Source: Yoonia vestfoldensis (GTDB taxonomy: Bacteria > Pseudomonadota > Alphaproteobacteria > Rhodobacterales > Rhodobacteraceae). From it: DNA of 64,000 nt. The stretch's first letter is position 1. Each line of letters starts with the position of its first letter. A program made the position numbers and the translations under genes. This document shows positions 1 to 19,517 of the stretch, piece after piece. The stretch is taken from the NCBI RefSeq assembly GCF_002158905.1, contig NZ_CP021431.1, forward strand, positions 558,001 to 622,000, written 5' to 3'. The notes beneath the pieces were generated by a model, which saw only the letters and a program-made list of their open reading frames with translations, was not told the origin of the DNA and ran no database searches.

Positions 1-588
1 ATGAAATTCCTTTGTGACGCGGATCGCTGCATTGAATGCAACGCTTGTGTTACGGCCTGCAAAAACGAGCATGAAGTCCCGTGGGGCATCAACCGCCGCC
101 GGGTCGTGACGCTGAATGATGGTCTGCCGGGTGAACGGTCGGTCTCGATGGCCTGTATGCATTGCACCGACGCGCCTTGTGCTGCGGTCTGTCCGGTGGA
201 TTGCTTTTACACCACCGATGATGCGGTCGTGTTGCACAACAAAGACACCTGTATCGGTTGTGGCTATTGCAGCTATGCGTGCCCCTTTGGCGCGCCGCAA
301 TATCCGCAAACCGCCAATTTCGGCACGCGCGGCAAGATGGACAAATGCACCTATTGTTCGGGTGGTCCAGAGCCGGACATGTCGCAGGCCGAATATGTGA
401 AATATGGCGCAAACCGTCTTGCCGAAGGCAAACTGCCGCTTTGTGCGGAAATGTGTTCAACCAAGGCGTTGTTGGCGGGGGATGGCGACATCATCGCTGA
501 CATCTACCGCGAACGGGTTGTCACACGAGGCTATGGATCGGGTGCCTGGGGTTGGCGCACGGCTTATGGCGAAACGGTAGCGGTTTAA
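1..588 (+). CDS. fdh3B: Formate dehydrogenase FDH3-type iron-sulfur (beta) subunit
   Basis: Electron-transfer subunit of a membrane-associated formate dehydrogenase; it should carry electrons from the molybdopterin alpha subunit (not in the window) to the cytochrome b subunit encoded next. The 195-residue product is a polyferredoxin with Cys at 5/10/13/16/20, 52/55/60/64/68, 84/87/90/94, 116/119 and 148/152, enough for four [4Fe-4S] clusters as in FdnH/FdoH relatives. No membrane helix is visible. The frame opens with ATG at base 1; relatives often begin a few residues earlier, so the true start may lie just outside. The stop at 586-588 runs into AAGGAGG, the ribosome-binding site of the gamma-subunit gene, so the two are cotranscribed. 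Confidence 0.9.
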   Translation: MKFLCDADRCIECNACVTACKNEHEVPWGINRRRVVTLNDGLPGERSVSMACMHCTDAPCAAVCPVDCFYTTDDAVVLHNKDTCIGCGYCSYACPFGAPQYPQTANFGTRGKMDKCTYCSGGPEPDMSQAEYVKYGANRLAEGKLPLCAEMCSTKALLAGDGDIIADIYRERVVTRGYGSGAWGWRTAYGETVAV

Positions 589-17059: not shown

Positions 17060-18616
17060 TTAGCTGTCTTTGTAGCTGACACCCTTGGTGTCATAGCCCG
17101 GCTGTGAATGGGCGCGCCGCACCAGCAGCCGGTTCAGCGCGTTGATATAGGCTTTGGCGCTGGCCACGACCGTATCGGTATCGGCGGATTGGCCGGTTGC
17201 GATGCGGCCGTCCTCTTCCATCCGGACCATGACGGTGGCCTGTGCATCGGTGCCTTCGGTCACGGCCTGCACCTGATACAATTGCAACCGCGCGCCATGC
17301 GGGAACAAAGCCTTGACCGCGTTGAAGGTCGCATCCACAGGGCCGTCGCCCGTGGCCGTTGTGGTGGCATCTTCGCCGTCGATATCCAGCACCATATCCG
17401 CCTGCTGCGGCCCTTCGGTGCCACAGACGACGCGCAGGGATTTCAGCTTGATCCGGTCCTCGCCGCTTTCGTTTTGATAGACCAGCGCCATCAGGTCATC
17501 GTCAAAGACTTCCTTTTTGCGGTCGGCCAGATCCTTGAACCGCACGAAGACATCATTCAGCTGGTTATCGGCCAGATCAAAGCCAAGCGCGGCCAGTTTC
17601 GCGCGCAGGGCGGCACGGCCCGAATGTTTGCCCAACGGCAGGCTGGTGCCCGACAGGCCCACATCCTCTGGGCGCATGATCTCAAACGTTTCGGCGTTCT
17701 TCAGCATCCCGTCCTGATGGATGCCGCTTTCATGGGCAAAGGCGTTCTTGCCCACGATGGCCTTGTTGAACTGCACGGCAAAGCCCGACACGGTCGCCAC
17801 CCGGCGCGAGATGTTCATGATCTTGCGCGTGTCGATCCCCGTCTCATAGGGCATGATATCGCCACGGATTTTCAGGGCCATCACGACCTCTTCCAAGGCG
17901 GTGTTGCCCGCGCGTTCGCCCAGACCGTTGATCGTGCATTCGATCTGGCGCGCGCCGCCGATCACAGCGGCCAGCGAATTGGCCGTCGCCATGCCAAGGT
18001 CATTGTGGCAATGGGTGGCGAAAATCACATCATCCGCGCCGGGCACAGTGGCGATCAGCCGCTTGATCAGATCGGCACTTTCGGCAGGGGCGGTATAGCC
18101 CACGGTGTCGGGGATGTTGATCGTCGTCGCCCCCGCCTTGATCGCGATCTCAACCACGCGGCACAGGTAATCCCATTCCGTGCGCGTCGCATCCATCGGC
18201 GACCACTGCACATTGTCGCACAGATTGCGCGCATGGGTCACCGTGTCATGGATGCGTTCGGCCATCTGGTCCATGTCAAGGTTCGGGATCGCGCGGTGCA
18301 ACGGCGAGGTGCCGATGAAGGTATGGATGCGCGGCGATGCGGCGTGTTTCACCGCGTCCCAGCAGCGGTCGATATCCTTGTAATTCGCCCGCGCCAGCCC
18401 GCAGATCGTGGCGCGTTTGGCCCGTTTGGCGATTTCGCTGACCGCGTTGAAATCCCCCTCAGAAGCGATGGGGAAACCGGCCTCGATGATATCGACGCCC
18501 ATATCATCCAGCAATTCCGCGATTTCCAGCTTTTCGGCATGGGTCATCGTCGCACCGGGGCTTTGTTCGCCGTCGCGCAGGGTCGTGTCGAAAATCAACA
18601 CTTTGTCTTTGGTCAT
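17060..18616 (-). CDS. leuA: 2-isopropylmalate synthase
   Basis: First committed enzyme of leucine synthesis (2-oxoisovalerate + acetyl-CoA). The 518-residue product has the catalytic (beta/alpha)8 barrel at the N-terminus with DTTLRDGEQSPGATM and the metal-binding THCHNDLGMATANS, the GLGERAGNTALEEVVMAL loop, then the C-terminal LeuA regulatory domain that binds leucine (about 385-500). Length is normal for the bacterial enzyme. A 70-base gap separates it from an upstream 20-codon leader rich in Leu codons, suggesting attenuation control in addition to feedback inhibition. Confidence 0.96.
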   Translation of the reverse strand: MTKDKVLIFDTTLRDGEQSPGATMTHAEKLEIAELLDDMGVDIIEAGFPIASEGDFNAVSEIAKRAKRATICGLARANYKDIDRCWDAVKHAASPRIHTFIGTSPLHRAIPNLDMDQMAERIHDTVTHARNLCDNVQWSPMDATRTEWDYLCRVVEIAIKAGATTINIPDTVGYTAPAESADLIKRLIATVPGADDVIFATHCHNDLGMATANSLAAVIGGARQIECTINGLGERAGNTALEEVVMALKIRGDIMPYETGIDTRKIMNISRRVATVSGFAVQFNKAIVGKNAFAHESGIHQDGMLKNAETFEIMRPEDVGLSGTSLPLGKHSGRAALRAKLAALGFDLADNQLNDVFVRFKDLADRKKEVFDDDLMALVYQNESGEDRIKLKSLRVVCGTEGPQQADMVLDIDGEDATTTATGDGPVDATFNAVKALFPHGARLQLYQVQAVTEGTDAQATVMVRMEEDGRIATGQSADTDTVVASAKAYINALNRLLVRRAHSQPGYDTKGVSYKDS

Positions 18617-18645
18617 GTCATTATTCCTTTGATCTTTGGCAGGTA

Positions 18646-18710
18646 TCGGCGCTGTCCCATCCGAGCGGTCGCGCCGACAGGCACGCTCAGGCGCTGCTAA
18701 GAAGTAGCAG
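18646..18710 (-). promoter_or_regulatory. Candidate leucine attenuator structures upstream of leuA
   Basis: Between leader peptide and leuA the transcript can form mutually exclusive pairings: GCGCC (18694-18690, at the leader's end) or GCGCCGA (18652-18646) can each pair with the same GGCGC/TCGGCGC segment (18677-18671). The Leu codons themselves sit in a CTGCTA/TAGCAG hairpin (18710-18694). No U tract follows, so control might act through Rho or translation of leuA rather than a classical terminator. Confidence 0.5.
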
Positions 18711-18749
18711 GGCGGGGGCAGTGCCGAATGTCTGTGCCATCGTGATCAT
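18687..18749 (-). CDS. leuL: leuA leader peptide (20 residues, four consecutive Leu codons)
   Basis: A 20-codon frame, ATG 18749 to TGA 18687, 70 bases upstream of leuA. It contains CTG-CTA-CTT-CTT, encoding four Leu in a row just before the stop; CTA and CTT are uncommon in this GC-rich sequence. Such peptides sense charged tRNA-Leu in leu attenuators. A -10-like TATAGT ends only 7 bases before the ATG, so transcription could begin at the A of ATG and the peptide be translated leaderless, as is known for the trp leader of some alphaproteobacteria. No ribosome-binding site is visible. Confidence 0.72.
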   Translation of the reverse strand: MITMAQTFGTAPALLLLSSA

Positions 18750-18756
18750 GGCGGTG

Positions 18757-18784
18757 ACTATACAAATCTGATCCGCGATGAAAA
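18757..18784 (-). promoter_or_regulatory. Candidate promoter of the leu leader and leuA
   Basis: TTTTCA (18784-18779), a 16-base spacer and TATAGT (18762-18757); predicted start of transcription at or beside the leader ATG (18749). Confidence 0.5.
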
Positions 18785-18845
18785 GTGCTTATTTGTCGTC
18801 AAGGCGGGGCAGGGCCTGGTCGCGATTGGGCGGCGTCCTAATCTC

Positions 18846-19517
18846 ATGCGTATGGAAAATGCATTGATCATCGGCGCCTCGGGCGGCATTGGCGCGGCGG
18901 TTGCGCTGGCACTGGAAAACCGCGGCATTGCGGTCACGCGCCTGTCGCGGCGTGGCGACGGGTTCGACGTGACCGATCCCGCCTCGGTCGATGCGCATCT
19001 TGGCGCGCTGGCGGGACCGTTCGATCTGATCTTTGTCGCAATCGGCATTCTGGCCCCGCAAGGCAGCAGCCCGGAAAAGGCGCTGGCAGCCATCGACGCA
19101 GGCACGATGGCGCAGGTCATGGCGGTCAATACCATCGGCCCCGCGCTGATCCTGCGGCATGTGCCGCGCCTTTTGGCCAAGGACGGTCCGGCCGTGACAG
19201 CCATCCTGTCCGCGCGGGTGGGGTCTATCGGCGATAACCAGATCGGCGGTTGGCACAGCTACCGCGCGTCCAAGGCAGCGCTGAACCAGATCATCCGGGG
19301 TGCCGCGATCGAATTGGGCCGGTCGCATAAACAGGCCGCCTGCGTGGCGCTGCACCCCGGCACGGTGGAAACGCCATTCACTGCCAATTACGCGGGCCGT
19401 CATAAGACCATGCCTGCATCCGAAGCGGCGGCGCATCTGCTGGCGGTGATCGATGGGCTAATGCCCGCACAGACAGGCCGGTTTTTCGATTATGCTGGCA
19501 TCGAGGTGGCGTGGTGA
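18846..19517 (+). CDS. Short-chain dehydrogenase/reductase, C-factor-like
   Basis: NAD(P)-dependent SDR of 223 residues: nucleotide-binding IIGASGGIGAAVA near residues 8-20, the N-A-type VNTIGPALIL region, active-site Ser in ILSARVGSIG, and catalytic Tyr/Lys in WHSYRASKAALNQI, followed by HPGTVETPF. It resembles the CsgA/C-factor group; the substrate is unknown. ATG 18846 is used; ATG 18852 is an alternative. Its end overlaps the photolyase gene, suggesting cotranscription and perhaps a light- or stress-related role (inference). Confidence 0.85.
   Translation: MRMENALIIGASGGIGAAVALALENRGIAVTRLSRRGDGFDVTDPASVDAHLGALAGPFDLIFVAIGILAPQGSSPEKALAAIDAGTMAQVMAVNTIGPALILRHVPRLLAKDGPAVTAILSARVGSIGDNQIGGWHSYRASKAALNQIIRGAAIELGRSHKQAACVALHPGTVETPFTANYAGRHKTMPASEAAAHLLAVIDGLMPAQTGRFFDYAGIEVAW

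Follow-up and report, generated by a model that had tools for sequence, protein, structure and literature searches.

In gammaproteobacteria, leaders of the Leu_leader type and the classical leu attenuators carry a run of Leu codons in a short open reading frame (ORF) before leuA. In the translational attenuation of the erm and cat genes, a leader ribosome stalled by the antibiotic and the nascent peptide frees a downstream ribosome-binding site. For actinobacterial leuA, the sections on the LEU element in Seliverstov et al. 2005 (PMC1262725) describe a pseudoknot together with an alternative hairpin and, at the base, a stem that joins Leu codons to the Shine-Dalgarno box, and cite Streptomyces leuA leader mutants that did not fit classical attenuation. 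Passages on related leaders report that S. lividans LeuL1 (MRFGLLLLSCRGEGL) is leaderless and has no typical Rho-independent terminator (PMC8079986), that the presumed leuA leader of C. glutamicum contains four Leu codons (PMC4046766), and that the leaderless trp attenuator trpL/peTrpL of Sinorhizobium meliloti yields an sRNA (PMC10117765). A term search of the main text of a paper on alphaproteobacterial RNA motifs (PMC1273637) returned no leuA or leucine terms. Searches of an open-access library gave no proteobacterial report of the element described below, although subscription papers could hold one, and, among the matches listed, no relevant paper on leuA leaders in Rhodobacter or on translational attenuation in alphaproteobacteria.

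We analyzed a 64,000-nucleotide stretch of Yoonia vestfoldensis DNA (the window), whose leuA is preceded by a structured leader. The leader resembles the LEU element, as far as that element is described in the sections cited above, in its ORF with a Leu run before leuA and in its combination of a pseudoknot with an alternative hairpin (here P1, P2, and the pairing 18677-18671/18652-18646). Relatives of the window, as a set though not every one of them, also share the closing stem, in which the Leu codons pair with the Shine-Dalgarno region of leuA, but the window clade lacks it. The alphaproteobacterial element also differs in phylum, in the sequence of P1, and in lying mostly before the other type of leuA. 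Moreover, its leader stop codon lies inside P1, whereas in four actinobacterial sequences inspected by eye the stop falls in the loop after the 5' strand of P1. Compared with the Leu_leader type, the window leader has the same kind of short Leu-run ORF before leuA but no terminator, U tract, or match to an Rfam leader family. Like trpL/peTrpL, it is a leader ORF that probably begins with its transcript in an alphaproteobacterium; that system is a Trp attenuator yielding an sRNA, whereas the leuA leader would be a translational switch. As with erm and cat, a stalled leader ribosome would free a downstream ribosome-binding site, but the cause of stalling would be a shortage of charged tRNA-Leu, and the blocking helix would be built from the sensing codons themselves.

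The leuA leader locus of the window

The features of the locus, all on the minus strand, were as follows.

17060..18616, minus strand: leuA, 2-isopropylmalate synthase (NF002087, TIGR00973)
18625..18629, minus strand: leuA Shine-Dalgarno sequence AAGGA (by eye)
18630..18641, minus strand: segment just 5' of the leuA Shine-Dalgarno sequence, at the position of the anti-Leu segment A' in relatives (fold, leader shuffles)
18646..18652, minus strand: pseudoknot segment D', GCGCCGA (pairing tested on relatives)
18661..18667, minus strand: P1 3' strand CGCUCGG (window fold, model match, covariation in relatives)
18671..18677, minus strand: pseudoknot segment D, UCGGCGC, of which 18675-18672 doubles as the P2 3' strand (pairing tested on relatives)
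18680..18683, minus strand: UGCC, P2 5' strand and competitor for the pseudoknot segment (fold, P1/P2 covariation)
18684..18690, minus strand: P1 5' strand CUGAGCG, including the leader stop UGA (window fold, model match, covariation in relatives)
18687..18749, minus strand: leader ORF of 20 codons plus stop, MITMAQTFGTAPALLLLSSA (Leu-rich leader kept in relatives)
18699..18710, minus strand: Leu codons CTG CTA CTT CTT, segment A (sequence and fold)
18716..18748, minus strand: 5' half of the leader, predicted partner of the 3' region in the window clade (fold, leader shuffles)
18757..18762, minus strand: -10 hexamer TATAGT, 7 nt 5' of the leader ATG (sequence, promoter scan)
18779..18784, minus strand: -35-like hexamer TTTTCA (promoter scan)

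The first-pass annotation, which was made from the sequence alone, had placed the leader frame at 18749-18687, with four Leu codons and 70 nt upstream of leuA, and all of its coordinates agreed with the sequence; the Leu codons lie at 18710-18699, and the leader stop is 70 nt from the leuA ATG at 18616. It had also put the Leu run immediately before the stop; the run is there, but Ser-Ser-Ala separates it from the stop codon. A TATAGT ending 7 nt before the ATG was found as annotated, together with the -35-like hexamer, and TTTTCA-16-TATAGT was the sole promoter-like match in 18550-18900, where 0.2 were expected. Strings resembling TTTTCA were seen by eye at the equivalent place in many relatives. 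Judged from this spacing, the transcript carrying the leader ORF is probably leaderless. A gene for an SDR-family oxidoreductase diverges from the leader/leuA unit. An open frame on the plus strand (17108-18700) was considered as a coding gene, but it lies antisense to leuA and was dismissed as spurious.

The window RNA folded with a z score of -3.3, and 0 of 200 shuffled sequences were equally stable. Covariance model R1, built without the window copy, scored the element at 66.3 bits (E = 3e-14). A weak partial R1 match at window positions 277-298 on the plus strand (13.2 bits, E = 0.28) was taken as chance. The Leu codons lie in a hairpin, as annotated, with a perfect 6-bp stem (18710-18705/18699-18694). 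Segment UCGGCGC (18677-18671) can pair either with GCGCCGA (18652-18646) or with GCGCC (18694-18690), the two mutually exclusive pairings of the annotation. The former is the conserved pseudoknot helix, but the partner at 18694-18690 is specific to the leader end of the window clade, and the conserved 5' competitor for the pseudoknot segment is UGCC at 18683-18680. The main feature found in relatives, in which the Leu codons pair with a segment beside the leuA start, is absent from the window itself. Instead, the 3' segment of the window clade can pair with the leader start (UGAUC 18748-18744 with GAUCA 18634-18630, and UGGCA 18739-18735 with UGCCA 18641-18637), and the window fold predicts a further pairing of UCGGC-CUG-CCC (18727-18716) with GGG-CAG-GCCGA (18658-18645).

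Conservation and covariation in relatives

Conservation was examined in 219 loci, comprising 80 named leuA loci and the leuA loci of the window's genus and family; some genomes occur twice, and 9 of 119 family genomes with LeuA are outside the set. The leuA start is included in 218 of the 219 loci, and L047 lacks an upstream region. R1, which was trained on 108 of the 219, matched the sense strand of 210 loci at E ≤ 0.05 (73/80, 59/59, and 78/80). The loci missed at this threshold were L047, which is cut off, L051, L058, L061, L065, L069, L078, L201, and L220; among these, L058, L061, and L065 reached 0.05 in a smaller R1 search. A script found a Leu-rich frame with its stop in the stem in 202/218 loci, including at least one false frame (L113). 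R1 matched 14 of the 16 loci missed by the script (12 scoring at least 44 bits) and gave no match in L078 and L201. The leader often ends in LLLLSRL or LLLLTRL in Rhodobacteraceae and in LLLLSCP in Rhizobiales-type relatives. The annotation had proposed a leucine leader peptide ahead of leuA and had named nonconservation of the Leu-rich frame as the finding that would speak against it; the frame recurs in relatives, and this conservation rules out a Leu run by chance.

Whole-genome searches placed the element next to leuA. R1 matched 48 of 385 class genomes (E ≤ 0.01), with leuA adjoining the match in 29 of the 30 loci returned. A second model, R2, whose wider training alignment contains the window copy, matched 110 of the 385 (E ≤ 0.001), at one place per genome, and 77 of 398 phylum genomes, all 77 belonging to the window's class. 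Among the best-scoring whole-genome matches (71 loci, 68 distinct places), a same-strand leuA followed 23-410 nt downstream in 70, and the distance from element to leuA was within 170 nt in 67. LeuA was detected at E ≤ 1e-120 in 188/385 class genomes, 102 with an R2 match and 86 without one, indicating that in many of them the element is too divergent for R2 or absent. Conversely, eight R2 matches were in genomes without LeuA at this threshold: G174 and G324 have a cut-off ordinary leuA; G161, G392, G394, and G473 have a leuA with just about 25% identity to that of the window; the LeuA match of G248 is partial and lies on a short contig; and the eighth genome is G472. The sole model-found locus without leuA was L253, an R1 match in genome G228, where R2 finds a different place (G228:C75) that adjoins leuA. 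In Rfam 15, the search of the window at gathering scores and that of seven relatives at E 0.1 each returned only a tRNA and no leader family.

Spacing to leuA varied in some loci. In L102, L105, L106, L109, and L113, the element is at least about 400 nt away from leuA. In L105 (3067-3570), a 118-amino-acid gene, named cupin-like from its sequence, separates the two, so that the element heads a two-gene unit there. In L091 and L101, an anti-Leu segment was seen by eye directly before an ATG at the place of the intervening gene of L105. Loss of the element in genus members without a leuA-adjacent copy was considered and rejected because R1 finds the copy farther upstream.

The Leu run makes up segment A in relatives (for example, CUCCUUAGC). 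The commonest P1, found in 71 of 184 rows, is CCUCUGAGCG/CGCUCAGAGG, with the leader stop in its 5' strand, and P2 (GUGCC...GGCGC) lies within P1. On the 3' side of P1, segment D' (GCGCC) can form a pseudoknot with GGCGC, and near leuA lies segment A', complementary to A (for example, GCUAAGGA). In the P1/P2 alignment (109 rows, one of them a 10-nt stray), 97.5% of cells were paired and six pairs changed on both sides (0/500 shuffles). A class-wide alignment fitted to the model showed nine pairs changed on both sides, two of them within the stop codon, and in that alignment the leader stop shifts from UGA to UAG with its partner changing too.

The A:A' and pseudoknot pairings were assessed on 184 unique rows, from which rows with a P1 score under 19, including the window and its sister L085, were excluded. 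Each A scored 16.97 against its own A' and 13.63 ± 0.20 against swapped partners (n = 184). Outside the window's family the A:A' signal was weaker, at 15.75 compared with 14.17 ± 0.27 for swapped partners, the top of 100 swaps reaching 14.82 (n = 70). The pseudoknot pairing scored 19.45 versus 16.99 ± 0.16 when swapped; swaps were used here because D' is out of register in alignment A2 and its columns are not countable. With kinship ignored, CTTA co-occurred with TAAG in a ratio of 59:0 and CTAA with TTAG in a ratio of 23:1 among rows having either string, and 46 of 49 rows had the third base of the Leu codon paired with its counterpart in A' (C-G 27, T-A 14, T-G 4, and G-C 1; nonpairing A-A 2 and T-C 1). 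Independent pairs taken from supported branches of the LeuA tree moved in the same direction in means of 3.9 of 4, 3.9 of 5, and 2.6 of 3 and never in the opposite one, each set alone being too small for significance. Neither TAAG nor TTAG followed P1 in 81 of 169 relatives (44 CTTA rows, 21 CTAA rows, and 16 others); some of these rows paired in another register, and others had no good A'. Where A' is clear, its usual place is about 15-20 nt upstream of the ATG and on the 5' side of the best Shine-Dalgarno sequence, so one has to assume that the ribosome-binding site is occluded and not masked directly. Conservation within the element is highest in P1 and the pseudoknot. We consider the existence of a conserved alphaproteobacterial leuA leader element and of its helices very likely, its conservation and position being observed and the helices following from covariation.

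The promoter spacing in relatives bears on the transcript start. In 107 of 160 relatives (the 184 unique rows without L050-L080), a -10-like hexamer lay 6-8 nt before an in-frame leader start, compared with a shuffled mean of 8.9 and a highest value of 16; the rule was set after seeing examples and passes over TATAAA and TATAAC types, which bears on the 53 of 160 misses. The spacing was 6 nt in 8 relatives, 7 nt in 66, and 8 nt in 33, where 4-11 nt were allowed and ties were resolved towards 7. None of the 107 relatives with a -10 had a Shine-Dalgarno-like string before the leader start. This pattern fits a transcript that begins at the leader AUG, as is predicted for the window, and the comparison with relatives makes the start proposed there by the annotation very probable.

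Proposed leucine control and the window clade

We favor, as the probable reading, that the element is a cis-acting, leucine-responsive RNA leader that controls the translation of leuA. Translational control by leucine is likely, and we infer the stalling step and the sign of control. The transcript would start at or beside the AUG and be translated immediately into the Leu-rich peptide. When leucine is plentiful, the ribosome would cross the Leu codons and exit at the stop codon within P1; P1, the pseudoknot, and the closing helix would then fold against the leuA ribosome-binding site, and translation would be held down. When leucine is scarce, the ribosome would wait on the Leu codons and mask the segment needed for the closing helix, so that leuA would be translated. 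In ordinary relatives this segment would be the Leu codons themselves.

The proposal was compared with a fold model without pseudoknots, in which the leuA start was opened over -22 to +3 in 132 relatives. The mean opening cost was 7.1 kcal/mol; it was 4.6 kcal/mol with the Leu codons covered and 7.0 kcal/mol with the first 28 nt covered, and a drop of more than 0.5 kcal/mol on covering the Leu codons was seen in only 92 of the 132. Covering the stop had about the same effect as covering the Leu codons (4.49 and 4.64 kcal/mol). A ribosome on the stop would therefore open the site as well as one on the Leu codons, and leucine would have to act through dwell time. Among leader Leu codons, CTA made up 21.5% and CTT 37.4%, versus 1.8% and 9.9% in seven window ORFs; these rare codons may serve stalling, pairing, or both.

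The window departs from this scheme. A window-like element occurs in five of 56 genus genomes (L315-L319) with 89-96% identity, and A' was absent, by eye, from all six window-type copies (L314-L319). The window and its five sister genomes are a divergent subtype from which the partner of the Leu codons is gone, and in them the element is either in decay or has shifted its closing strand. The fold of the six copies pairs the leader start with the 3' region (UGAUC/GAUCA, GGCA/UGCC, (U)CGGC/GCCG(A), and CUG-CCC/GGG-CAG), the second start-region helix being weakened in L315. According to the model, the leader's own start region may pair in place of the Leu codons, so that a start-region helix may replace the closing helix formed by the Leu codons in ordinary relatives. 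Such a helix would be opened by a single ribosome or by queued ribosomes at the start codon. The fold model gave an opening cost of 8.8 for the leuA start of the window, 7.3 with the Leu codons covered, and 8.8 with the stop covered; covering the leader start lowered the predicted cost to 2.7, and covering the start and the Leu codons gave 3.6.

Decay of the window-clade element, with the closing helix lost and the long start-region pairing due to chance, is unlikely but the most serious of the alternatives. Only six genomes related by common descent carry this form, the P1 of the window has 7 bp where 10 bp or more is commonest in relatives, and the start-region pairing was noticed after looking. 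When the first 36 nt of the leader were shuffled, equal stability was reached in 0-10 of 300 shuffles per window-type sequence, so that 6/6 copies were more stable than nearly all of their shuffled versions, which speaks against decay; for two ordinary members of the genus the counts were 15/300 and 83/300, the first being near the 10/300 of L315. A separate run of leader shuffles gave 3/500 for the window and 0/500 for L085, and the mean z of 132 other relatives was -0.38, with a single relative below -3. Against decay there is also one base pair that varies as U-A, U-G, and C-G across the six copies, and the promoter, Leu run, P1, and pseudoknot are all retained.

Rho-dependent polarity would have the structure govern the exposure of untranslated RNA to Rho, the mRNA level changing secondarily. 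It is compatible with the window stretch, where an intrinsic terminator was not found, and a block in translation often brings polarity; nevertheless, the covarying helices stop at the leuA start, as expected of a translational switch, and we regard polarity as the primary mechanism as improbable. We attach similarly little weight to a trans-acting protein or other ligand that binds the pseudoknot and leaves the leader peptide secondary. P1 and the pseudoknot, as the best conserved part, would suit such a factor, and a protein was proposed for the actinobacterial LEU element, with cited mutation data, in the LEU-element sections of PMC1262725. However, the conserved rare-codon Leu run, the tight spacing from promoter to start, the retention of the stop codon within P1, and the pairing of the Leu codons themselves point to a translating ribosome.

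Classical transcription attenuation, in which the position of the ribosome selects an antiterminator or an intrinsic terminator, accounts for a leader with a Leu run and alternative helices but is very improbable, since 18550-18900 of the window has 0 terminator-like sites (0.2 in shuffles), 2 of 169 unique relatives carry TTTTT, and 14 carry TTTT, in the 60 nt following P1, and the conserved piece nearest the 3' end lies at the leuA start, out of place for a terminator. The label of transcription attenuator in the annotation was accordingly not supported, but its reservation that the mechanism might not be a classical terminator agreed with these counts, and the lack of a terminator makes translational control the likelier.

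Possible counterparts in Actinobacteria and other leuA loci

In the upstream regions of four actinobacterial leuA genes (L308-L311), the best stems, taken with no chance control, measured 11-12 bp for P1, 5-7 bp for the pseudoknot, and 6-10 bp for the Leu-codon pairing; the Leu-codon pairing of L310 scored no better than shuffled regions. R2 matched two of the four regions (27.4 and 24.8 bits), for which similar codons could be the explanation.

The element also precedes a leuA about 25% identical to that of the window in L296, L297, L298, L299, L302, and L303. The L299 protein (genome G826, from the phylum search) belongs to TIGR00970/PRK03739. With copies before both the ordinary leuA and this one, one element serves two distant kinds of leuA.

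A broader reading, which we offer as speculative and rather unlikely, is that a single mobile RNA family common to Actinobacteria and Proteobacteria uses its sensing codons as the blocking strand before two distant kinds of leuA, and that the window clade swapped its closing strand for the leader start and would thereby read ribosome load or queueing at the start codon. Under the preferred reading of a translational leucine switch, many Alphaproteobacteria appear to exert leucine control by means of a structured RNA with no Rfam match, and the old puzzle of the actinobacterial LEU element becomes testable in easily handled strains. The leaderless start, the Leu codons, the stop in P1, and the A:A' helix can be altered separately. 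Ordinary relatives and the window clade form a natural series in which the part of the leader that possibly forms the blocking helix has changed.

Two further leuA loci showed related pairings. On pSymB of Sinorhizobium meliloti Ak57 (L312), a leuA of the other kind is preceded by a Leu-rich stretch, a stem of 12 bp, a pseudoknot-like pairing of 8 bp, and, close to the leuA start, another pairing of 6 bp, all counted with no chance control. On the megaplasmid of Cupriavidus metallidurans CH34 (L313), an 11-bp pairing joins a Leu-rich stretch to the region ahead of the leuA start (CTTCCTCGCTA/TAGCGAGGAAG), and from this pairing a similar switch may exist in Betaproteobacteria.
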